From Smithellaceae bacterium (GTDB lineage Bacteria; Desulfobacterota; Syntrophia; Syntrophales; Smithellaceae), in assembly GCA_030690945.1 (NCBI GenBank), contig JAUYFM010000002.1, forward strand, positions 62,001 through 126,000: a stretch of DNA of 64,000 nt, read 5' to 3'. The translations under genes were made by a program, and so were the position numbers. Every line of letters begins with the position of its first letter. The stretch's first letter is position 1. Positions 6,783-27,921 of the stretch are shown here, piece after piece. The notes beneath the pieces were generated by a model. That model was not told the origin of the DNA. It saw only the letters and a program-made list of their open reading frames with translations, and did no database searches.

Positions 6783-8351
6783 ATGAAACTGGCCACCGTT
6801 GAACAAATGCGCGGGATGGATCGCCACGCGATCGAAACATTGGGCATTGCCGAAGAGATCCTTATGGAGAACGCGGCGCTGGCGTCCGCCGCGCTGTTGA
6901 AAAGCCAAGTCGGCATTTGCGGCAAGAAGTTTGTGATCTTCTGTGGTGCGGGTAATAACGGCGGCGACGGCCTGGCGGTGGCGCGCCTGATCAACTCCTG
7001 CGGCGGAAGTGTAAAAGTGTTTCTGGTGGCGTCGCCTAAAAAATATGCCGGTGCCGCTAAAACGAACTATGAGATAGCCTGCAATATTTCTCTGGATGTT
7101 CAACTGTTGACAAAAGCCGAAGAAGCAAGAATCGAAACGTTACATTGCGATGTCGTTGTTGATGCGATTTTCGGCACGGGCCTGGATCGCGATGTTAAAG
7201 GCCTGGCCGCCGATGTGATCGCGCTGATCAATGCTTCCGGACGGCAGGTGTTGAGCCTGGATATTCCCTCCGGTATCAACGGCGATACGGCACGGGTCAT
7301 GGGTGTCGCGGTCAAGGCTGATTACACCGTTACGTTTGGCCTGCCGAAAATCGGTAATCTGCTCTACCCCGGCTATGATCATTGCGGGGCGCTCACCGTG
7401 ACGCATATTTCTTTTCCGCCATCGCTTTATAACAGACGGGATCTGGCGGTACAGACCAATGACAGGGTTTTGTTGCCACCCCGACCTGCCGAAGCTTACA
7501 AAGGCTCAACGGGGGATGTTTTGTTTATTGCCGGAGGCGCCAACTACTTTGGTGCGCCGTATTTTTCCGCCATGTCGTTTTTGAAGGCTGGTGGAGGCTA
7601 CGCAAGGCTTGCTTCGCCGGCATCGATTATTCCATTTGTCGCGCAGTCAGGCCGCGAAATCGTTTATCTGCCGCAAAGAGAAACGGCGGCGTTCAGTCTG
7701 TCGCTTAAGTCCAAGCCGGAGTTGCTCGCGCATGCAGAAAAGGCCGACATGGTGGTGATAGGCCCCGGCCTGTCTTTACAGGAAGAAACGACGAAGCTGG
7801 TGCGGGAGCTTGCCGCGGCTATTTCCAAACCGCTTTTGATTGACGGCGACGCTTTGACGGCCATCGCAGAGCGGCCCGAAATTTTGCTCAAAAGAAAAGC
7901 CGCGACGATTCTGACGCCTCACGCAGGCGAAATGGCGCGGCTGTCCGGCAAAAAGATTACGGAAGTGAATGCTGATAAAATCGGTGTTTTGACGGAGACC
8001 GCTCAAAAACTCAACGCCGTCATCGCGCTGAAAGGTGCGCATACGCTAATTGGCATGGCGGACGGACGGGTGTATGTCAATTTAAGCGGCAATCCCGGCA
8101 TGGCGACAGCCGGAAGCGGCGATGTACTAACCGGCTGCATCGCGGCCATGCATGGCCAGGGATTGAGCCCGGAACTGGCGGCGCGTAAAGGCGTTTTCCT
8201 GCACGGTTACGCCGGAGACCTGGCCGCAGCAGCAAAAGGCCAGGACGGCATCACCGCGTCTGATATTTTGGAATACTTACCCTTGGCGCTCAAGGATGAC
8301 CGGACGGGGAATATCGATGCAAAATATTATGAACCGCCGGTAATGTTGTAG
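6783..8351 (+). CDS. nnr: Bifunctional NAD(P)HX epimerase / ADP-dependent NAD(P)HX dehydratase
   Basis: This 522-residue protein repairs hydrated NAD(P)H. The N-terminal YjeF_N epimerase domain (about 1-215) has VEQMRGMDRHAIE, FCGAGNNGGDGLAVAR and the DAIFGTGL/DIPSGINGDT motifs. The C-terminal kinase-like dehydratase domain (about 230-510) has VIGPGLSLQEET, LIDGDALTAIAE, LTPHAGEMARL and NPGMATAGSGDVLTG. Length matches the fused bacterial form. An upstream ATG at 6735 is in frame, but CGGAGG before 6783 and the family's usual MKLAT/V start favour 6783. The enzyme is cytoplasmic and housekeeping. Confidence 0.95.
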   Translation: MKLATVEQMRGMDRHAIETLGIAEEILMENAALASAALLKSQVGICGKKFVIFCGAGNNGGDGLAVARLINSCGGSVKVFLVASPKKYAGAAKTNYEIACNISLDVQLLTKAEEARIETLHCDVVVDAIFGTGLDRDVKGLAADVIALINASGRQVLSLDIPSGINGDTARVMGVAVKADYTVTFGLPKIGNLLYPGYDHCGALTVTHISFPPSLYNRRDLAVQTNDRVLLPPRPAEAYKGSTGDVLFIAGGANYFGAPYFSAMSFLKAGGGYARLASPASIIPFVAQSGREIVYLPQRETAAFSLSLKSKPELLAHAEKADMVVIGPGLSLQEETTKLVRELAAAISKPLLIDGDALTAIAERPEILLKRKAATILTPHAGEMARLSGKKITEVNADKIGVLTETAQKLNAVIALKGAHTLIGMADGRVYVNLSGNPGMATAGSGDVLTGCIAAMHGQGLSPELAARKGVFLHGYAGDLAAAAKGQDGITASDILEYLPLALKDDRTGNIDAKYYEPPVML

Positions 8352-15442: not shown

Positions 15443-16312
15443 ATGGAACTATTTTTACAACAGGTGTTTAATGGAGTCATGTTGGGCAGTACATATGCCA
15501 TCGTCGCCTTGGGACTGACGATGGTTTATGGCATTCTGCATGTGCCGAATTTCGCCCACGGCAGTATGTACATGCTTGGCGCGTATGTCTGTTTCTTTTT
15601 GATCACGATTTTCGGTTTCGCCTACTGGCCCGCCGTGGCGGTTTCCGCCATTGTGCTGGCTCTCGGCGGAATCGTACTTGAGTTTCTGGTTTATAAACCG
15701 TTGCGTAATGCTCCGGGCGTAAACCCGTTCATCGCCGCGCTCGGCGCCCTCATTATTTTGGAAAACGCGGTCGTGGTACTCTGGGGACCGGAGGGTCACC
15801 GCATTCCGAATCCTTACCCCGGCATTATCGATGTCATCGGCATCACCATGTCGCAGCAGCGCCTGCTGGTTATAGCCGTTGCGTTTACGATGATTTTTCT
15901 GCTTCAGCTTTTTATCAAAAAGACGACAATGGGCAGCACTATTGAAGCAGTTGCCCAGAACAAAGAAGGGGCCACGCTCGTCGGCATCAATGTTAACCGT
16001 GTATCCGCGATGACCTTTGCCATTTCCACCGGTCTGGCCGCGATAGCCGCCTGCATGGTCGCGCCGATCTTTATGATCTCACCCAGTATGGGCGCTTTGG
16101 TCGGGCTCAAAGCTTTTGTAATTGTTATCCTCGGTGGAATGGGCAGTATTCCTGGCGCCATTGTCGGAGGTATTATTCTGGGACTGATTGAAGCCATCGG
16201 CGGCGGCTACTTTTCGGCGGCATATAAAGATGTGTTCGGATTTGGTGCGCTGGTGCTGATCCTCGCTATAAAGCCAACCGGCTTGTTCGGGAAGGAGATT
16301 AAGGGCAGATGA
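15443..16312 (+). CDS. livH: Branched-chain amino acid ABC transporter permease LivH
   Basis: This 289-residue inner-membrane permease is one half of the channel of a HAAT-family importer. It shows the hallmark N-terminus FNGVMLGSTYAIVALGLTMV, then GILHVPNFAHGSMYMLGA, and a C-terminal ILGGMGSIPGAIVGGIILGL loop that contacts the ATPase. About eight membrane helices are visible. The ATG at 15443, with TGGAG five bases upstream, gives the family's normal start. A GTG at 15407 is in frame but less likely. It overlaps livM by four bases. Confidence 0.93.
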   Translation: MELFLQQVFNGVMLGSTYAIVALGLTMVYGILHVPNFAHGSMYMLGAYVCFFLITIFGFAYWPAVAVSAIVLALGGIVLEFLVYKPLRNAPGVNPFIAALGALIILENAVVVLWGPEGHRIPNPYPGIIDVIGITMSQQRLLVIAVAFTMIFLLQLFIKKTTMGSTIEAVAQNKEGATLVGINVNRVSAMTFAISTGLAAIAACMVAPIFMISPSMGALVGLKAFVIVILGGMGSIPGAIVGGIILGLIEAIGGGYFSAAYKDVFGFGALVLILAIKPTGLFGKEIKGR

Positions 16313-18863: not shown

Positions 18864-20426
18864 CTAGCTCCAGCTTTTATCCTTGGCCGCGTTTTGACCG
18901 GCGATCCGGCCGAAAATGAGACAATCCAGTGTCGCACAGCTGCCCAGACGGACCGCACCATGCACGCCGCCTGTCACTTCACCGGCCGCATATAGGCCGG
19001 GGATAGGTTTGTCCGTCATGATATCCATAGCTTGTGCTTTGACATTCATGTGAACGCCGCCCATACAGTGATGAATCTTGGGCGTGAGCCGCAGAGCATA
19101 CCAGGGGCCGGGTCCGAGAGGCTTTTGGTTTTTCTGCAAATACCTGCCCCATTCAGCATCTTTGCCGGCCAAAACTCCTTTGTTGAATTTTTCGATCTCC
19201 TCTTTGAGGGGTTCCACAGGGCAATTATGCGCCGCTGCCATCTCCTCAATCGTTTCATATTTCTTGACCACGCCTCTTTCCATCAGTTTAGGCAAGGCCT
19301 CTGCAATGGCTTTCTGTCCAAAGGCATAACCAGAAGCATCCGTAAAGGCAATGCATTTGTTGCCAACGCGTATAATTGCATCTGCGCGGATTTTTCGGTC
19401 GGCCAGTTCGTTAACAAATCGCTTGCCGGTTTTGGTGTCAATCCAGAGGCCATACATGGCGGCGCAGAGTTGCGCGAAGAAAGGTGATAGTCCCATTCCC
19501 TTCTCGTCAGGGCTACCCCACGGACCCAGCTGAATCCAGGAAAGCTGAACGGGTGTGCAGCCGATACGCAGGGATTCACGCAAAGCTTCCGAGGTGGCGC
19601 CGGGCTGATTGGTGCTCGGGAAATCGGCGTTCAGACGGGGGTCTTGGATGGTTCGGAAAGCAACATCATTGCCGAACCCACCTGTTGCCAGAACGACGGC
19701 TTTTCTGGCCTTGATGTTCTTTAATTTACCGCTGTCTGCGTTCGGGAAAACGTACTTATCCCGGATCTGAACGCCTTTGACCCGTCCATCTGCATCGCGA
19801 TAAATTTGGGTTAGAAAACTTTGTGTTTTAGGTTCCACGCCCAGTTCTTTGAGTTTGGCAAGTTGTTGGGTGACAATGGCCGAACCGCTCTGGTTGTGAG
19901 TGCTGTACATCCGGGGAACGGAGTGTCCGCCTTCTTGCGACAGTTTGTCCTTATACTGAACGCCGAGTTCCGTCATCGTCCACTGAACGGTGGCATTGGA
20001 ATTGTCGGCGACCATTTTGGCCAGTTCCACATGGTTTAAATTCAGACCGGCTGTCAGCATATCCTTGAGCAGCAGTTCCGATGAATCCTTGACACCTTGT
20101 TTTTCTTCCATGGGCGAGCCCGCCGCCGAAATGACGCCGCCGTTGATGATCGAATTGCCGCCGGGTGTGCGCATTTTTTCCAAAATGACTACGGATGCCC
20201 CCGCTTTTTTTGCTTCGTAGGCCGCTGCCAATCCGGCAAAACCGCTGCCGATGACAACCACGTCATAGGTTTCATCCCATTTTTTGGGTATGGCGGCCGC
20301 TTCTGCCTTCCAGGGCGTCAAAGCCACGCCACTCGAAGCCAGTCCGGCGACTGCTGCCGCTGTGCCTGCGGTTTTTAGAAAATTCCGTCTGGTTAATGAT
20401 TTTGTGATTTTTTTGTCTTCTGCCAT
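18864..20426 (-). CDS. Tat-exported FAD reductase of the fumarate reductase/flavocytochrome c family
   Basis: This 520-residue periplasmic flavoprotein has a twin-arginine signal (SLTRRNFLKTAGTAAAVAG), then the FAD-binding VVVIGSGFAGLAAAYEA. The C-terminal catalytic part has HHCMGGVHMNVKAQ and GEVTGGVHGAVRLGSCA, which keep the His and Arg used by soluble fumarate reductases. The usual IQ.HPT segment instead reads IQLGPWGSP, so one substrate-binding His is absent and the true acceptor may be another 2-enoate. No haem motif is present, so electrons must come from a separate cytochrome. The start at 20426 has an AGGAGG-type site. It is a paralogue of the flavoprotein at 22597-24150. Confidence 0.85.
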   Translation of the reverse strand: MAEDKKITKSLTRRNFLKTAGTAAAVAGLASSGVALTPWKAEAAAIPKKWDETYDVVVIGSGFAGLAAAYEAKKAGASVVILEKMRTPGGNSIINGGVISAAGSPMEEKQGVKDSSELLLKDMLTAGLNLNHVELAKMVADNSNATVQWTMTELGVQYKDKLSQEGGHSVPRMYSTHNQSGSAIVTQQLAKLKELGVEPKTQSFLTQIYRDADGRVKGVQIRDKYVFPNADSGKLKNIKARKAVVLATGGFGNDVAFRTIQDPRLNADFPSTNQPGATSEALRESLRIGCTPVQLSWIQLGPWGSPDEKGMGLSPFFAQLCAAMYGLWIDTKTGKRFVNELADRKIRADAIIRVGNKCIAFTDASGYAFGQKAIAEALPKLMERGVVKKYETIEEMAAAHNCPVEPLKEEIEKFNKGVLAGKDAEWGRYLQKNQKPLGPGPWYALRLTPKIHHCMGGVHMNVKAQAMDIMTDKPIPGLYAAGEVTGGVHGAVRLGSCATLDCLIFGRIAGQNAAKDKSWS

Positions 20427-20951
20427 AATTTCCTCCTGATATCTTTTTTTTGTGGTTAGATTGTTAAATAACATCTTCTTGCCATAATGATCGAAGATAA
20501 ATTGTAATGAATAGAATCATAAAATTTATCATTATTTAAAATGAAGGCATTAAAATCCTTATGCGGCATCAGTGTATCGGATTGATATTCACGAATGACA
20601 GCGCGGGAAATGGATGCGATAAAGCCAGATCTAAGAAGAAACGACGAACTGCGATAACGTAATAACTTCATATACATAAGCATAAACATGAACCTTGTCG
20701 TAACTGTAGCATAAACAGAAAATAATGCAAGATATTCCGATTGACCCGAGTATTGCATGGATAATCAGATTATTTTGGAGACCTCTTGACGTTTATCTGA
20801 TGAAATTTGCAACAGGAAGAGACTGTTGGAACAAAAAGGTGGAACAAAAAGGTTGTTTTCAGATAAAACGTATTATATCATAGATACAGATGGTTTGCTC
20901 GGAATCGCCAATAAGTTATATTTCGAATGGTTACCATTAAATGAGGTTTTT
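20427..20951. other. Divergent intergenic region with a 13-bp tandem repeat
   Basis: These 525 bases lie between the leftward flavoprotein and the rightward selenocysteine-type cytochrome. A perfect tandem copy of TGGAACAAAAAGG occupies 20827-20839 and 20840-20852, followed by an AT-rich TATTATAT stretch at 20871-20878 that could be a -10 element. Frames open on either strand here show no family features. I see no RNA gene. Confidence 0.45.
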
Positions 20952-22208
20952 ATGAGGAATCAAAGACGATTGACATTCAGCCTGCTGTTTATCGCTTTTT
21001 TGCAACTGTTTTTCACTCAGGCAATCTGGGCTGCTGTCGACAGCAGTTGCGTCACCTGCCATACCAATGAATCGCTGATGAAAACTCTTCACAAACCGCC
21101 GTCCATGCCGGAAGGTGAAAGCGGAGAGGGGTGAGCGGGTGCTCCTCCGCCGGTCCGGGCGGAAGAAATGTATAAGGGATACGTTGTAGATCGCGACCTT
21201 CTTAAGAAAGATCAACATTTTATCCTGGCGTGTCCCCAGTGTCATCAAGGGAATGCCGGGATACTAAAAAAGGATGAGGCACATAAAGGCCTGGTCAAAA
21301 GACCTTCGGACAATATGGCCAACTGCGCAACGTGCCATAAGTCGGTAACGGACAAGTACTCAAAATCGCTTCATTATACAACGGCCGGCCTGAGAAATGG
21401 GGTGATGCCGCGTTTTTCCAAGGAAGAATTAAAAACGTTTGATGAAAAAGTCTTTGAAAAGTCATGTCGCAGTTGTCATGCGTCCTGCGGCGATTGCCAT
21501 GTGAAGTCCCCGGCGGTGGGTGGTATCAGCACCGGGCTTTTGGCCAAACACAAATTCGTAAAAAAAGATGAAGGCAAGACCTGTTCATCGTGTCATGGTG
21601 GCAGGGTCTATCCCGAATATACGGGAGAGTATAGTGGCGCTCCGGATGTGCATTATCAGAAAGGGATGCTGTGCATGGACTGCCATAAGAAAGCGGAATT
21701 TCATGGAGACGGCAAGGCGTATGAATCTAAAAACCAGGTGAAAGACCGTCCGGCTTGCCGCTCCTGCCACAAGCCAGGCAGCGAAAAGAATCCGGCAGCC
21801 AAGATGTCGCATGAGATGCATGCAGACAAGGTATCCTGTTATGGTTGCCATTCTGGAGCAGAATACCGCAACTGCCAGCAATGCCACGCAGGCACCGGCG
21901 CGACAGCCAAGCCGGAAATGATCCTGGGCAAAAATCCGCGGGATAAAAAGACGCTGACCACTCTGCGGTTGATTCCGACGGTTCGTGACACGTTTGCCAA
22001 AGTGGGCATCAAAATGGAAAACTATGATGCGTTACCCAACTACTGGGATACGCCCGCCCATAATATTCGTAAGCGGACGGATCGCACCCGTTCCTGCGAT
22101 ACCTGTCATGTTGAGAGAAAGAACTTTTTGACGAAAGAGAGGTTGATCAAGGATGGTTCCAGGGCTAATGAGGGTTTGATCATGGTACCAAAACCAATTA
22201 AGCGATAG
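20952..22208 (+). CDS. Eleven-haem periplasmic cytochrome c with in-frame UGA (candidate selenoprotein)
   Basis: Read through the TGA at 21132-21134, this is one 418-residue protein with a Sec signal peptide (MRNQRRLTFSLLFIAFLQ...), and the TGA is codon 61. Haem motifs are CVTCH before the TGA, then CPQCH, CATCH, CRSCH, CGDCH, CSSCH, CMDCH, CRSCH, CYGCH, CQQCH and CDTCH after it: eleven CxxCH in all. Downstream codons are in the same frame with no other stop, the downstream part alone would have no signal peptide, and a SECIS-like hairpin follows the TGA at the right distance. The local context is GEG-Sec-AGAPPP. GAGG precedes the ATG at 20952. It probably passes electrons to or from the flanking flavoproteins. 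A simple nonsense mutation is the alternative. Confidence 0.7.
21132..21166 (+). promoter_or_regulatory. UGA codon and SECIS-like hairpin
   Basis: After the TGA, 17 bases lead to the loop GGTCCG (21152-21157), closed by the six-base stem TCCGCC/GGCGGA (21146-21151 with 21158-21163), with two more pairs after one mismatch. The bacterial SECIS element of E. coli fdhF has a GGUCU loop about 18 bases after its UGA, so both the distance and the GGU loop start agree. SelB binding is inferred. Confidence 0.6.
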
Positions 22209-22596: not shown

Positions 22597-24150
22597 ATGA
22601 AAAAAGACGATCAATCAGAAAAAACATTATCACGACGAAATTTTTTAAAGACAACGGGCGGCGTAGCTGCCACGGCGGCTGCCATGGTGGGAGGCCTTAA
22701 TCTTCTTCCTGCGAAAGCCGAAGCGGCTTGCGATGCCCTGCCGAAAAAATGGGACGACACTTATGATGTTGTGGTGATCGGCAGTGGTTTTGCGGGACTG
22801 GCCGCAGCTATTGAAGCGAAGAACGCGGGTGCCAATGTTCTGGTGATTGATAAGATGGTTCTTCACGGCGGCAACTCAATTATCAACGGCGGAGATTTTT
22901 GCGCGCCCGGCACAAAATTGCAGCAGGAAAACGGTGTTCAGGATTCAGCCGAACTCATGTTGAAAGACATGCTCAGAGTGGGAGCTTACCTGAATCATCC
23001 CGACCTGGCCAAAATGGTGGCTTTCAACGCCAAGGGAGCGCTGGAATGGACGGAATCCTACATCGGCGCAAAATATACAAAACTCAATTTTCACGGCGGC
23101 CATTCCGTCAAGAGAGCCCACGGGACGATCAATTCCTCGGGGTCTGAACTGGTTAACAAGGAGCTGGCAAAGGCCAAGGAAATTGGCGTTAAAATTCAGC
23201 TGCGCACCAAGCTGGTAAAATTCCTCTCGAATAAAGATGGCCGAATCGTCGGCGTGGAAGTGCGCAAAGATTACAAATTTCCTGATGACAATTCCGGGAA
23301 AGCTGCATTCATCAAGGCGAAAAGAGCCGTTGTACTCAGTTCAGGTGGTTTTTCTCGAGATACCAGACTGCGTCAGGTGCATGATCCTCGTCTCACTGAC
23401 CGCTTTGAATCCACTAATCAGCCCGGCGCCACAGGCGAGGCGTTGCTGGCTGCGTGTATGGCTGGTGCGATGGATGTTCAGATGGACTGGATTCAGCTTG
23501 GTCCCTGGACAAGCCCGGATGAAAAAGGGTTCGGATATGTGCCGCTCTTCTGCGAGCGGTTGGTTGGTTATGCTCCCATGATCAATCCCAAAACAGGCAA
23601 GAGATTCTTTAAGGAAACGGGAAACCGCAAGGAACGGGCTGACGCCATTATTCTGATCGGCGACCCGGTCATCATTATGGGGGATTCTTATGCTGTCAAT
23701 AAGCAGATATTCCCTATGGCGCTGCAGAAGGGGATGGAAGCGGGCGCCATTAAGAAATTTGATACGCTCGAAGCCCTGGCTAAGGAATATAACATTCCCG
23801 TTGACGTCTTCCTTAAAGAAATCGAGCGATGGAACTCCTATGTGGAAAAGAAGAAGGACGATGATTTTGATTGTATGATCTTCAAAGATGCCCAACCGAC
23901 CGTCGCCGGGCCATTCTACGCCGCGAGACTCTGGCCCAAGGTTCATCATACGATGGGCGGATTGAACATTAATACGGACGCCCAAGTCATTGGCTTTGAT
24001 TTCAAACCCGTCAAAGGTCTTTATGCCGCCGGTGAAGTAACCGGCGGTGTGCATGGCGCTGTTCGCCTGGGCGGCGTGGCCATGGCCGACTGCATCGTCT
24101 TCGGTCGTGTTGCGGGTACCAACGCAGCAAAAGAAAAACCATGGGGTTAA
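22597..24150 (+). CDS. Tat-exported FAD reductase, fumarate reductase-like (second paralogue)
   Basis: This 517-residue protein has Tat signal SRRNFLKTTGGVAATAA, FAD-binding VVVIGSGFAGLAAAIEA and KMVLHGGNSIINGGDF. The catalytic region has GKRFFKETGNRKERADAI, HHTMGGLNINTDAQ and GEVTGGVHGAVRLGG. The Arg and His of the fumarate reductase site are kept, but IQ.HPT is IQLGPWTSP as in the paralogue at 18864-20426. AGGAGG precedes the ATG. The next gene encodes a cytochrome whose C-terminus matches the haem domain of flavocytochrome c3, so the two together correspond to one split flavocytochrome. The acceptor is probably fumarate or another unsaturated acid. Confidence 0.87.
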   Translation: MKKDDQSEKTLSRRNFLKTTGGVAATAAAMVGGLNLLPAKAEAACDALPKKWDDTYDVVVIGSGFAGLAAAIEAKNAGANVLVIDKMVLHGGNSIINGGDFCAPGTKLQQENGVQDSAELMLKDMLRVGAYLNHPDLAKMVAFNAKGALEWTESYIGAKYTKLNFHGGHSVKRAHGTINSSGSELVNKELAKAKEIGVKIQLRTKLVKFLSNKDGRIVGVEVRKDYKFPDDNSGKAAFIKAKRAVVLSSGGFSRDTRLRQVHDPRLTDRFESTNQPGATGEALLAACMAGAMDVQMDWIQLGPWTSPDEKGFGYVPLFCERLVGYAPMINPKTGKRFFKETGNRKERADAIILIGDPVIIMGDSYAVNKQIFPMALQKGMEAGAIKKFDTLEALAKEYNIPVDVFLKEIERWNSYVEKKKDDDFDCMIFKDAQPTVAGPFYAARLWPKVHHTMGGLNINTDAQVIGFDFKPVKGLYAAGEVTGGVHGAVRLGGVAMADCIVFGRVAGTNAAKEKPWG

Positions 24151-24244
24151 CACTTGAATGGCCTTGTTTTTGTTTCAATCCAGCAGTTCAAAGTAAATCG
24201 GATACGGTGTTGTCCGGCAATTATGATTCGTTGAGGTAAATCGT

Positions 24245-24796
24245 ATGAAAAACAAAAAGACAAAAAAACTGTTACTTGCCGTCTCACTTATTTTATTTCT
24301 GGTCGCGCTTTTATCAGGCGGCATTGATGCTGCGCCCAAAGAAAAGAAGGCGGCACCCAAGGCGAAAGCCGCTGATGTGAAAGCCTGGGATTGTGCAGGC
24401 TGCCACAAGGATAAAAAGGTTCTCCCCGACAGTCATGTGCCGATCAAGGAGATGCCTTATGAAGGTTGCCTGGTCTGCCATATTCCGGGTGAAAAAAACG
24501 CGGGTACACTCAGAACCAAAATACCCGGCAGCCATCTTCATGCGCTCAAAGGTGTTAAATGTGCACAGTGCCACGGCAAGGTTAAGAAGCCCGCGCCGGT
24601 GGAGATGAGCAAATGCGTGGCCTGTCATGGCGAGACGGCTAAACTGGCGGAAAAGACGGCGAAGGTAAAGCCGCAGAACCCGCACGAATCGCCGCACTAT
24701 GGCACGTCCGCCGACTGCAATCTCTGTCATCATCAGCATGCAAAGTCGGAGAATCTTTGTGCCCAGTGCCACAAGTTCGACTATATTGTTCCTTAA
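24245..24796 (+). CDS. Six-haem periplasmic cytochrome c, flavocytochrome c3 haem-domain type
   Basis: The 183 residues have a signal peptide (MKNKKTKKLLLAVSLILFLV, then to about residue 29), a Lys/Ala-rich linker, and six CxxCH motifs: CAGCH, CLVCH, CAQCH, CVACH, CNLCH, CAQCH. The C-terminal half, with CVACHGETAKLAEKT and CAQCHKFDYIVP, closely follows the tetrahaem domain of Shewanella flavocytochrome c3, which ends CHSFDF. It is therefore the likely electron donor to the preceding flavoprotein. The two extra haems extend the usual four. It lies between the flavoprotein and the NrfD-type quinol oxidase gene. Confidence 0.85.
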   Translation: MKNKKTKKLLLAVSLILFLVALLSGGIDAAPKEKKAAPKAKAADVKAWDCAGCHKDKKVLPDSHVPIKEMPYEGCLVCHIPGEKNAGTLRTKIPGSHLHALKGVKCAQCHGKVKKPAPVEMSKCVACHGETAKLAEKTAKVKPQNPHESPHYGTSADCNLCHHQHAKSENLCAQCHKFDYIVP

Positions 24797-24833
24797 CTGG
24801 AGTCTGATCTAAATCGGTATAAGGAAAAAGATC

Positions 24834-26078
24834 ATGGGTTGTTCGGAAGAATCAACATTTCCGGGGTGTGTTAAGGATGCAGCTGGCCGCGTGATACACG
24901 GCGGCCCGGTGTATCTTGTCTTTTTGAGTTTTTTTATTGTTCTATTTCTCGCCGGTGTCGTTTCAGGCGTTTATTCTTTATTTATTGAAGGCAGCCGCCA
25001 TGCTTACGGCACCTACCGCGAAATTCCGCTGGCGCTCTTAATTGCCACGTATATTTTTTTCGTTGTGGCGTCCACCGGGCTTTGCCTGGTTTCCTCCATC
25101 GGACACGTGTTCGGCAACCGCGATTTTCTGCCGATTGCCAAGCGTTCCGTGCTTCTAGCCCTGATTACGATCATATCAGGGTTTCTCGTGATCGGCCTGG
25201 AGATCGAAAACCCCTTCCGCATGATGCTCTATCTGTTTACTTCTGCTAATTTATCCTCAAACATCTGGTGGATGGGCACTTTGTATATGCTGTACATGAT
25301 ATTCATGGCGGTGGAATTTATTTTGCTGATGCGCGAATCTCATAGGATTGCCGCTTTTTTTGGATTCTTAAGCGTTCTTGCCGGTGTGTCGGCGCACAGC
25401 AATCTGGGCGGCATTTTTGCGATGCTGAGCGGCAGAGACGTCTGGTACGGGCCTTTTCTTCCTGTCTATTTTATATTGTCGGCGATGATGACGGGAAGTG
25501 CTTTCATTATCCTTTTTAGTATCGTGGCGCAGAAACTCCGCGGGCAAGGCATGAATGAAGACGAACAAAAGTCGCTTGCGCTCGTGAGTAAGTTGGCCAT
25601 GCTGATGATTGCCGCTGTGGCTTTTCTGACCATCTGGAAAATGATTACCATGACGACCGGCGGCGAAACCCGACTGATTACGCTGCATGAAACGATCAGT
25701 GGGTCCCATGCATTCAGTTTCTGGGTGCTGGAAATTGCCTGTGGACTGGTCATTCCCTTTGCCCTGTTGTTGTGGTCACGCGGCACGAAGCGAGGATTGA
25801 TGCTGGTTGCCTCGGGCCTTATGATTTTTAGCATTTTCTTCATGCGCCTGGATCTGGTGGTCATGGCTCAAATTGTTCCTTTGTATTGGGAGCTTGGCGT
25901 CAGGGAGTTTTCTCAATTGCATACTTACTCTCCCACGTGGAAAGAAATTCTTGTTGCCTTCGGGGGGATTGGGTTTTGCGGTATGGCATTTTTACTGGGA
26001 GAAAAGGTATTCAACGGGTTTAGCGGCATCCGTTGTGCAAACGCGGTCGAAAACGGAAAGGCTGAGAGTGAACCATGA
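24834..26078 (+). CDS. NrfD/PsrC-type membrane quinol-interacting subunit
   Basis: This 414-residue polytopic membrane protein has about nine to ten helices. VYLVFLSFFIVLFLAGVVSG, GLCLVSSIGHVFG and the conserved helix ends fit the NrfD/DmsC family, which exchanges electrons with menaquinol without haem. AAGGAA precedes the ATG. The start of the ferredoxin gene overlaps its end by four bases, matching the known pairing of NrfD with a four-cluster FeS subunit. It probably oxidises menaquinol and sends electrons outward to the cytochromes. Confidence 0.88.
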   Translation: MGCSEESTFPGCVKDAAGRVIHGGPVYLVFLSFFIVLFLAGVVSGVYSLFIEGSRHAYGTYREIPLALLIATYIFFVVASTGLCLVSSIGHVFGNRDFLPIAKRSVLLALITIISGFLVIGLEIENPFRMMLYLFTSANLSSNIWWMGTLYMLYMIFMAVEFILLMRESHRIAAFFGFLSVLAGVSAHSNLGGIFAMLSGRDVWYGPFLPVYFILSAMMTGSAFIILFSIVAQKLRGQGMNEDEQKSLALVSKLAMLMIAAVAFLTIWKMITMTTGGETRLITLHETISGSHAFSFWVLEIACGLVIPFALLLWSRGTKRGLMLVASGLMIFSIFFMRLDLVVMAQIVPLYWELGVREFSQLHTYSPTWKEILVAFGGIGFCGMAFLLGEKVFNGFSGIRCANAVENGKAESEP

Positions 26079-26824
26079 TTTTCAATCCGTTTGATACAGA
26101 AAAAATTTTGGAAAAATCGGAAACGGTTTCCGGGTTTGACCGCCGGGAATTTCTGAAAATCGGGCTTACGATTACCGGTGTATTTGCCGGCGGTTCGATC
26201 GCGTCTGTTGTATCTGCGGCTGAAAAGATATTTCCACGCGGTTCTTATGCGGAGAAGTATCCCTATAAACCGCATTACAGCATGGTGGTCCGGGTGGACC
26301 AGTGCATCGGATGCCGCCGTTGCGAAAAAGCGTGTGTGACCACCAATGCGGTGCCTGACTACGGTTGGCGCACGAAGGTTCTGGAACGGGAAGTTCCGGA
26401 AGCGATCGGTCAAAAAAGAGAGTTCATTCCGGTGCTTTGTAACCAATGCAATAATCCCCCCTGTGTCCGCGCCTGTCCTGTTCGGGCAACCTACAAGGAT
26501 AAGACCCATGGCATTGTGATGATGGACAACAAAAAATGCATCGGCTGCAAAATCTGCATGGTGGCCTGCCCTTATAATGCCAGGTATTTCAATGAAGAAA
26601 AACATGCCATCGACAAGTGTGATTTTTGTTTTGAATCGAGACTTTCCAGAGGAGAGAAAAATACCGCCTGTTCGGTTTATTGCCCGGCGGATGTCCGTGT
26701 GTTCGGCGATCTGTCCAATCCAAAAGATCGCGTATATCAATTGATTCATCAGTTGCAGAAGCCCGTCTGGGTTCTTAAAAAGGAAACAGACGCCAGGCCC
26801 AACATTTTTTACATGAAAGGGTAG
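26075..26824 (+). CDS. Tat-exported ferredoxin-like subunit with four [4Fe-4S] clusters
   Basis: This 249-residue protein has a Tat signal (DRREFLKIGLTITG) and four cysteine groups: CIGCRRCEKAC, CNQCNNPPCVRACP, CIGCKICMVACP, and a split CDFCFESRL...ACSVYCP. This is the NrfC/DmsB/HybA pattern. It relays electrons between the NrfD subunit and periplasmic cytochromes. The Tat signal places it outside the inner membrane. It overlaps the NrfD gene and is followed 11 bases later by the 12-haem cytochrome. Confidence 0.92.
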   Translation: MIFNPFDTEKILEKSETVSGFDRREFLKIGLTITGVFAGGSIASVVSAAEKIFPRGSYAEKYPYKPHYSMVVRVDQCIGCRRCEKACVTTNAVPDYGWRTKVLEREVPEAIGQKREFIPVLCNQCNNPPCVRACPVRATYKDKTHGIVMMDNKKCIGCKICMVACPYNARYFNEEKHAIDKCDFCFESRLSRGEKNTACSVYCPADVRVFGDLSNPKDRVYQLIHQLQKPVWVLKKETDARPNIFYMKG

Positions 26825-26835
26825 GCACGGGAGAA

Positions 26836-27921
26836 ATGTACAAACGGCTTATCGTCACCATCACTTTGCTTTTGATCTGTTTTGTATCGTCCGGTGTCAA
26901 GGCGGCGCAGCCGGCTAAAGGCATTCTATATACCAAACCGCTGGAATCCGTTATTTTTAGTCATCAGGACCATACAGGGAAAGATGTTTCCTGCGCCACC
27001 TGTCACAGCGGACTTTTTGAGATGGAAGCCCAGCACGTCCAGAATGCAAAAGACTTCACTATGGGCTCCCTGTACAAGGGGAAGTACTGCGGCGCCTGTC
27101 ATAATGGTAAAAAAGCGTTTGCGTCGAATACCCAATGCGCGCGTTGTCATCTCGGCTCCACTGCACAAGCACCGCAAAAAGAAACGACGACTTATAAAAT
27201 GTCCGTCACCTTAGGTAAGGGTGATAAAGGTGTGATCTTCAACCATGAAAAGCATATCAAGAAAGCAAGCTGCCGAAGCTGTCATAATTCCTTATTTCAA
27301 CCGAAAGAGGGAGCGGCCAAAATTAACCTGGCCGATCACACCAAGCAGCAGTATTGCTTTACCTGTCATGATCAGCAGGGGAAAAACGGTTTTACATCAA
27401 ATGATTGCAGCCGTTGTCATAAGAAGTCCATCACAGCGCCTGTGGAAACGATAAAATACGGTAAAGGCGCCAAAGCTGTTTCATTTAAACATGAAAGTCA
27501 TCAGATCAAAGGTGGTTGCAAGGCCTGTCATTCTCAGACATTTTCTTATCGCAAGGCTGAGACTAAAATTGATTTCAATGATCATGTTAACGGCAAATCC
27601 TGCTTTACCTGTCATGCTCCCAAAGGAGGATCTGCATTTTATGACTGTAATCGTTGCCATAAGGATAAGCCCGCCGCTAAGACGCCCGCTTATTATCCGG
27701 ATACGCTGAAATATAAAACCCCCATGCAAAATGTCTATTTCCACCACGCAAGCCATGCGGTCTTTGCATGTAATTCATGTCATCCCCAGACATTTGCCGT
27801 TAAAAAAGGCAAGACAAAAATGATTATGTCGGAAATGTTGCATGGCAAGACCTGTGGTATGTGTCACAACGGCAGTAAAGCATTTCCCGCGCAGGATTGC
27901 GCCAGGTGCCACAAGAAGTAG
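26836..27921 (+). CDS. Twelve-haem cytochrome c of four three-haem c7-like modules
   Basis: The 361 residues start with a signal peptide (MYKRLIVTITLLLICFVSSG). Twelve CxxCH motifs follow in four repeats of about 80 residues, each with a 'F.H..H' distal-His motif before its first haem (for example VIFSHQDHTGKDVSCATCH, VIFNHEKHIKKASCRSCH). The pattern is that of polymeric cytochromes made of c7-type triplets, which act as periplasmic electron wires or stores. It follows the NrfD and FeS genes and precedes the haem-attachment genes, so it is the likely acceptor of the quinol-oxidising module. Confidence 0.9.
   Translation: MYKRLIVTITLLLICFVSSGVKAAQPAKGILYTKPLESVIFSHQDHTGKDVSCATCHSGLFEMEAQHVQNAKDFTMGSLYKGKYCGACHNGKKAFASNTQCARCHLGSTAQAPQKETTTYKMSVTLGKGDKGVIFNHEKHIKKASCRSCHNSLFQPKEGAAKINLADHTKQQYCFTCHDQQGKNGFTSNDCSRCHKKSITAPVETIKYGKGAKAVSFKHESHQIKGGCKACHSQTFSYRKAETKIDFNDHVNGKSCFTCHAPKGGSAFYDCNRCHKDKPAAKTPAYYPDTLKYKTPMQNVYFHHASHAVFACNSCHPQTFAVKKGKTKMIMSEMLHGKTCGMCHNGSKAFPAQDCARCHKK

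Follow-up and report, generated by a model that had tools for sequence, protein, structure and literature searches.

A total of 119 prokaryotic selenoprotein families or subfamilies were tabulated in 2026, and the cytochromes in that table, according to the accessible text, are ExtKL (NF040886) and an octahaem family (PMC13188914). ExtKL is the proposed selenocysteine (Sec) cytochrome of Geobacter, in a cluster linked to selenite and tellurite reduction (PMC5877670), and its N-terminal part binds five haems (PMC1914089, PMC5877670). A Sec 'cytochrome c family protein' is given by accession in PMC9312934, and the table in PMC13188914 uses that name for ExtKL. The same review states that the Sec form of the octahaem tetrathionate reductase (OTR) family is annotated in GenBank (PMC13188914). 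TsdA and SoxXA use an active-site Cys, sited at a c-type haem, on which a covalent sulfur adduct is formed (PMC5146829).

Here we describe a gene in the window (the whole 64,000-nucleotide stretch that was analysed) that is predicted to encode a Sec-containing cytochrome with eleven haems. The first-pass annotation of the locus had expected a notable selenoprotein class, and this stands in part: in the text accessible to us, the 119 families tabulated in 2026 do not include the eleven-haem family, but Sec multihaem cytochromes as such were already known in the form of ExtKL and the octahaem family (PMC13188914). No published listing naming an eleven-haem Sec family was found in the accessible journal literature on selenocysteine or selenoproteins and cytochromes. 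Within that literature, and as far as could be searched, we are dealing with a real, widespread and apparently undescribed selenoprotein family.

An eleven-haem cytochrome gene with an in-frame TGA

With the TGA read through, positions 20952-22208 form a single frame of 418 residues, with its sole TGA at residue 61 and eleven CxxCH motifs, one ahead of the TGA and ten beyond it. The elements of the gene are as follows.

20943-20946, + strand: GAGG, possible ribosome-binding site of the gene
20952-22208, + strand: predicted eleven-haem selenocytochrome gene with one TGA as Sec (translation, CxxCH scan, TGA-containing homologues)
20952-21035, + strand: N-terminal signal peptide, residues 1-28 (sequence inspection; cleavage site placed by eye)
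21048-21062, + strand: haem 1 motif, C33xxCH, the only one upstream of the TGA (invariant in alignments of 30 and 38 rows)
21132-21134, + strand: TGA codon, predicted Sec61, in the motif GEG-U-AG (TGA in 109 distinct homologous genes)
21231-21245, + strand: haem 2 motif, C94xxCH (CxxCH scan)
21324-21338, + strand: haem 3 motif, C125xxCH (CxxCH scan; aligned to haem 1 of OTR)
21465-21500, + strand: haem 4 and haem 5 motifs, C172xxCH and C179xxCH (aligned to OTR haems 2 and 3)
21582-21887, + strand: haem 6 to haem 10 motifs, at C211, C241, C269, C296 and C308 (CxxCH scan)
22095-22109, + strand: haem 11 motif, C382xxCH (CxxCH scan)
22206-22208, + strand: stop codon TAG

The first-pass annotation had described one continuous frame split by the TGA, with a signal peptide and one haem before it and ten haems after it, and the translation agrees, with the signal peptide recognised by eye. 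It had also remarked that the 3' part has no export signal of its own; this part is the listed ORF at 21168-22208, which starts MYKGYVVDRDLL and in which we likewise see no signal by eye. A standard ORF listing thus cuts the selenocytochrome gene at the TGA. Pfam models matching the window protein are those of general multihaem cytochrome families only.

The TGA is conserved across three subfamilies

When 59 genomes (relatives together with the window's own) were searched, 32 matched the family, with 33 full-length matches, and TGA is present at the site in 32 of these, the exception being in G051. Among named genomes, all 80 loci retained among 128 relatives have TGA at the site, 79 of them as aligned together and L108, which falls in a gap of that alignment, on separate inspection; the titles of the holders include Syntrophaceae, Smithella, Syntrophus, Geobacter sp. 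OR-1, Desulfonema magnum, Spirochaetes/Treponema, Bacillota and others. When 395 genomes of the phylum were searched with a profile, a second and a third subfamily with TGA at the same place came to light. The motif is GEG-U-AGAPPPVR in subfamily A, GEG-U-GG followed by APLEP or EPLAP in subfamily B, and VAG-U-GVSAPQVR in subfamily C, and there are subfamilies with 30-37% identity to the window protein. In a further profile search that covered all subfamilies and was centred on a genome of the window's own phylum, TGA occupies the site, by hand count, in 49 of 50 long matches, defined as those running from model position 50 or earlier through 391 or later. In this search 63 of 395 genomes match at E ≤ 1e-20, weak relatives included, and many have full-length TGA-containing members.

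After reduction to a pairwise identity of no more than 97% over the compared stretch, and with each gene scoring at least 163 bits with the family profile, there are 109 distinct TGA-bearing genes (86 in A, 18 in B and 5 in C). Partial matches without the N-terminal part, the G059 gene, which is cut by a contig end, and G373 contig 28, which has fragments with stops, were excluded from the counts. Both G60 and U61 are invariant across the 92 rows of the A3 alignment. Four members (L084, L097, L103 and L090) have additional CxxCH motifs within their reading frame, N-terminal to haem 1, resembling a fused cytochrome.

Two relatives have a sense codon at the Sec site, TGG (Trp) in G051 (L039) and TAC (Tyr) in G388 (L166), and both retain eleven haem motifs. 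At L039 a B-type hairpin still folds despite the Trp codon (6931-6975, z -2.06), which suggests that Sec was lost recently or that the base call is wrong. The first-pass annotation had reckoned with either UGA or Cys at codon 61 among homologues, and the alignments bear out the former, with TGA in 109 distinct genes, but not the latter: no Cys form was seen among the genomes sampled, and the sense-codon relatives have Trp and Tyr. The chemistry of the Sec therefore cannot be read off a Cys/Sec pair. Selenoproteins without Cys homologues are considered scarce, according to the accessible text of PMC1914089, and searches that rely on Cys/Sec pairs would miss them.

A conserved hairpin follows the TGA

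Downstream of the TGA there is a stem-loop resembling a SECIS element.

21146-21163, + strand: SECIS-like stem-loop with an 11-base spacer, a 6-bp stem and the loop GGTCCG at 21152-21157 (hairpin tests; the stem at the same position covaries in subfamily B)

The stem is formed by pairing of 21146-21151 with 21158-21163. A hairpin with a GGTCCG loop had been predicted to start 17 bases after the TGA; the hairpin and its loop are real, but 17 bases is the distance to the start of the loop, and the stem begins 11 bases past the TGA. Taken alone the window hairpin is unremarkable, with z of -1.50 against dinucleotide shuffles and -1.82 against synonymous shuffles, and it is because of its conservation in homologues that we regard it as more than chance. 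An Rfam search gave no model matching the element, which therefore lies outside the curated Rfam families.

Three kinds of comparison bear on this conservation. Within subfamily A, GT is present at bases 19-20 past the TGA in 86/86 genes, and codon choice downstream is strongly skewed relative to the background in the same genes: the Pro4 codon is CCT in 77/81 genes (19% background), the Ala9 codon is GCG in 67/67 (24% background), and the Arg8 codon is CGG or AGG in 51/51 (46% background). This extreme synonymous choice falls where a base must pair. Using protein-preserving synonymous shuffles, the mean z of the local hairpin is -1.93 for A (n=86), -3.48 for B (n=18) and -1.28 for C (n=5), as compared with 0.0 to -0.22 at seven control offsets in the same test. 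Single-gene significance is modest, p ≤ 0.05 being reached by 41/86 A, 16/18 B and 0/5 C genes. A broader 45-base test gave a mean z of -0.80 against 0.04 to -0.43 for controls; it used 101 genes, some of them present twice, and the local test used the cleaned set of 109, and the results agree. In subfamily B, five of the eight stem pairs have changes on both sides in 17 of the 18 B-type genes (L189 was excluded for a one-codon shift), although these counts come from related genes and hence are not independent events. Pairing is seen in 91.2% of the cells of this stem, against 35-51% when the partners are slid by 1-3 columns. Glu-Pro-Leu-Ala and Ala-Pro-Leu-Glu are exchanged across the B loop, such that the stem stays paired. 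Judged from these alignments and shuffles, a hairpin under RNA-level selection is retained in subfamilies A, B and C, with its distance from the TGA unchanged.

Selenocysteine machinery

We searched the window's own genome for selA, selB, selC and selD, as the first-pass annotation had proposed, and all four were found. SelA is present, SelB scores 362 bits, above its cut-off, and selD is present and itself contains a TGA. The tRNA-Sec has the anticodon TCA (UCA) and scores 73.5 bits, with ARAGORN in agreement; an additional match, marginally above the gathering score, is a tRNA-Ser. SelB is above its cut-off in 55 of 59 relatives, so that co-occurrence within the order tells little. Among 31 further holder genomes, SelB matches at E ≤ 1e-60 in 29, of which 19 exceed the curated cut-off, and SelA is present in all 16 holder genomes tested, including both that have no SelB match at E ≤ 1e-60.

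A rhodanese protein is the usual neighbour

Downstream of most family members is a protein with two rhodanese domains (Pfam). Among 102 testable genes (distinct genes followed by 1.1 kb or more of sequence), 81 have a same-strand match within 2.2 kb to a rhodanese profile that was built from the neighbours of these very loci; by subfamily these are 65/82 in A, 11/15 in B and 5/5 in C. The rhodanese frame starts within 300 bases of the cytochrome stop in 65 of 65, 10 of 11 and 1 of 5 of these, respectively. No match lies within 2.2 kb for the remaining 21, which include the window gene and that of Desulfonema magnum (L096); the window's genome has one rhodanese match, 73% identical, on another contig. 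The neighbour rhodanese scores 98.8 bits with 3-mercaptopyruvate sulfurtransferase (MST) and 74.8 bits with ExtH, below both cut-offs. In three relatives the rhodanese is fused to the cytochrome, with the two domains N-terminal in G296 (L167) and C-terminal to the cytochrome part in G388 (L166) and G059 (L171).

The window gene has other redox genes around it. Downstream, at 22597-27921, are a Tat-signal flavoprotein of the flavocytochrome-c type (TIGR01813), a small cytochrome matched by a c3-type Pfam model, an NrfD-like membrane protein, a TtrB/DsrO-like FeS protein and a c7-type cytochrome, and a comparable NrfD/FeS/c7 set is found near several homologues. Upstream, on the opposite strand (18864-20474, -), is a second Tat-signal flavocytochrome-c-type flavoprotein.

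The core resembles octahaem tetrathionate reductase

An AlphaFold model made with 92 diverse homologues has a pLDDT of 86.2 and a pTM of 0.82, with low confidence in the stretch around the Sec; with 30 close homologues instead, the pLDDT is 46. A Foldseek search of the model against the PDB returned no significant match. When the 44 top Foldseek chains were compared structurally with the model, OTR (1sp3) ranked first (Z 9.5, rmsd 4.4, 262 aligned residues, 18% identity), followed by hydroxylamine oxidoreductases and others with Z of 4.5 or lower. Profile comparison with 22 OTR proteins using hhalign gave a probability of 98.2 and an E-value of 4.8e-14 over 188 columns. In this alignment, haems 3-9 of the family pair with OTR haems 1-7 (C211, C241, C269 and C296 falling on OTR haems 4-7), and Sec61 together with haems 1 and 2 is outside the aligned part. 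By sequence, the window protein has no match to TIGR04315 at E ≤ 1 (curated cut-off 375 bits), and only 2 of the 92 family members match that model at 1e-5, the best with E 1.1e-8. Solved structures searched by sequence gave nothing for the window protein, and with the family profile gave six weak cytochrome matches. We infer that the core of the window protein is a relative of OTR, extended by a segment with haems 1 and 2 and the Sec.

We take Cys64 and Lys153 of 1sp3 (numbered by hand count on the alignment) to be part of the OTR active site, and OTR haem 2 to be its catalytic haem. In the profile alignment, the window protein has Asp and Tyr opposite these two residues. With Cys64 and Lys153 lacking a counterpart and Sec61 lying outside the aligned part, the family has not kept the OTR active site in any simple way. 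By conservation, we count nine invariant or nearly invariant His residues outside the CxxCH motifs for the eleven haems, which leaves two haems with no conserved distal His.

The OTR family itself also contains TGA. By hand count, 30 of its 77 above-cut-off matches in the 395 genomes carry one TGA. In 29 proteins inspected among the top 30 matches, the residue preceding haem 2 (NNF-C/U and similar), which by hand count is residue 64 of 1sp3, is Sec 13 times and Cys 16 times. The Sec forms are L218, L222, L223, L228, L229, L232, L234, L236, L239, L241-L243 and L245, such that there are OTR Cys/Sec pairs at the putative active site. In G411 (L231) an OTR match ends about 310 bases ahead of an eleven-haem family match on the same strand.

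Proposed role of Sec61 and alternative explanations

Sec at residue 61 was the main inference of the first-pass annotation, and the TGA in 109 genes, the conserved hairpin and the full machinery support it strongly. As judged from sequence comparisons, the window protein is almost certainly a selenoprotein. Decoding of the TGA as Trp, or by some other near-cognate tRNA, would be in keeping with the Trp codon of the G051 relative, but we consider it very improbable. TGA ends ordinary genes in the window's genome, and within the window there are ORF pairs that overlap by four bases as ATGA (16309-16312 and 26075-26078); a conserved, covarying hairpin would be unneeded for Trp decoding; and its persistence in the Trp form is what a recent change from TGA to TGG, or an error in the base, would lead one to expect. 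The holder genomes, moreover, possess SelB or SelA. Still less credible is a pseudogene, a sequencing error or a pair of separate genes, for which the stop codon itself speaks and nothing further. The identical TGA recurs in independent genomes, those of Geobacter sp. OR-1 and Desulfonema magnum 4be13 among them, which makes sequencing error untenable; both flanks are conserved at full length with invariant haem motifs, and a separate 3' gene would have no export signal for its product. The Trp-decoding, pseudogene and two-gene readings were thus rejected on the conserved TGA, hairpin and flanks.

As for function, with a sulfur-carrying rhodanese as its usual neighbour the family probably represents a new selenium enzyme involved in sulfur respiration. 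That the window protein is a sulfur-compound oxidoreductase appears reasonably likely, and for Sec61 as its reactive nucleophile we judge the case to be evenly balanced. In the mechanism that we propose, UGA would be decoded as Sec by SelB and tRNA-Sec, and the protein exported, its eleven haems being attached once it has reached the periplasm. Sec61, located in the glycine-rich loop that separates haems 1 and 2, would be the reactive group, attacking the sulfane sulfur of a persulfide on the rhodanese partner, of polysulfide, of thiosulfate or of tetrathionate. The seleno-sulfide adduct formed at Sec61 could then be cleared by electrons passing along the haem chain, or the reverse, such that either reduction or oxidation would be served. 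Taken as a whole, a periplasmic eleven-haem selenoprotein acting as a sulfane-sulfur oxidoreductase with Sec61 as its reactive group is the interpretation towards which we lean, if only slightly.

Two other roles have to be weighed against the sulfane-sulfur oxidoreductase. The protein might be a Sec cytochrome that serves the reduction of selenite, tellurite or a metal, functionally analogous to the Ext proteins, with the Sec binding the chalcogen or metal or reducing it. The window protein has weak profile similarity to ExtM/ExtN/ExtO (37-43 bits), the neighbour rhodanese also scores with ExtH, and ExtKL, as a proposed Sec cytochrome, belongs to a selenite/tellurite-linked cluster (PMC5877670). 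However, those scores are far under the curated cut-offs of 200-800 bits and ExtKL itself is unmatched, both fold and profile indicate OTR, and the rhodanese scores higher with 3-mercaptopyruvate sulfurtransferase than with ExtH; we consider this role unlikely. We find it similarly doubtful that the protein is a non-catalytic electron carrier in which Sec61 has a structural or electron-transfer function, such as axial ligation of a haem. The two haems without a conserved distal His offer a possible place for a Sec ligand, and the Trp and Tyr relatives keep eleven haem motifs without Sec, but Met or other residues could likewise fill both ligand sites, and the rhodanese pairing and the OTR-like core suggest an enzyme rather than a carrier. 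Sec is usually retained for its reactivity, which also counts against a pure carrier.

A more specific form of the oxidoreductase proposal, and a speculative one that we think improbable, is a haem-selenolate enzyme, in which Sec61 would reach from the N-terminal extension to one of the haems that lack a conserved His ligand, such as haem 4, the counterpart of OTR haem 2 in the alignment, and selenium and iron would together cleave S-S bonds delivered by the rhodanese. To our knowledge, no other instance of haem catalysis by selenium and iron together at such a site is known. If true, this would be a novel haem catalysis in a Sec family for which no Cys counterpart has been seen so far. The family would connect selenium with sulfur or electron metabolism in the periplasm, in genomes with the labels Syntrophaceae, Smithella, Geobacter, Desulfonema and Spirochaetes, and the presence of the gene in named strains makes a test possible.

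Comparison with described selenoproteins and sulfur haem enzymes

The window protein is below every NCBIfam cut-off, and the other 91 A3 members have a best E-value to any NCBIfam model of 8.5e-14 (ExtO), a figure based on E-values and not on cut-offs. Membership of the ExtKL family (NF040886) was considered and rejected, as at E ≤ 1 there is no match to the window protein and none in its own genome; nor does NF040886 figure in the set of 11 families to which at least one of the 92 members has a match at 1e-5. There are nonetheless likenesses to ExtKL, which, in the accessible description, is also a multihaem c-type cytochrome with one TGA outside the CxxCH motifs, and whose cluster includes the rhodanese-like ExtH, recalling the rhodanese neighbour of the present family (PMC5877670). 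The two differ in that ExtKL has its five N-terminal haems and the window family eleven.

The closest relationship is with OTR (TIGR04315; 1sp3), with which, according to the model and the profile alignment, the eleven-haem family appears to have fold and haem order in common. In both families the Sec would be located between early haems. OTR has eight haems as compared with eleven, and its Sec replaces the Cys counted as residue 64, whereas Sec61 sits in the N-terminal extension. The likeness to TsdA and SoxXA is one of proposed logic, by analogy only, namely a chalcogen nucleophile at a c-type haem (PMC5146829, from the accessible text); these are other cytochromes, TsdA having two haems, and they use Cys instead of Sec. 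Finally, octahaem cytochromes clustered with rhodanese-domain proteins in Dethiobacter are, in the accessible text, sulfur-reduction candidates (PMC10376724), and these clusters fit the same sulfur theme as the eleven-haem family and its rhodanese partner.
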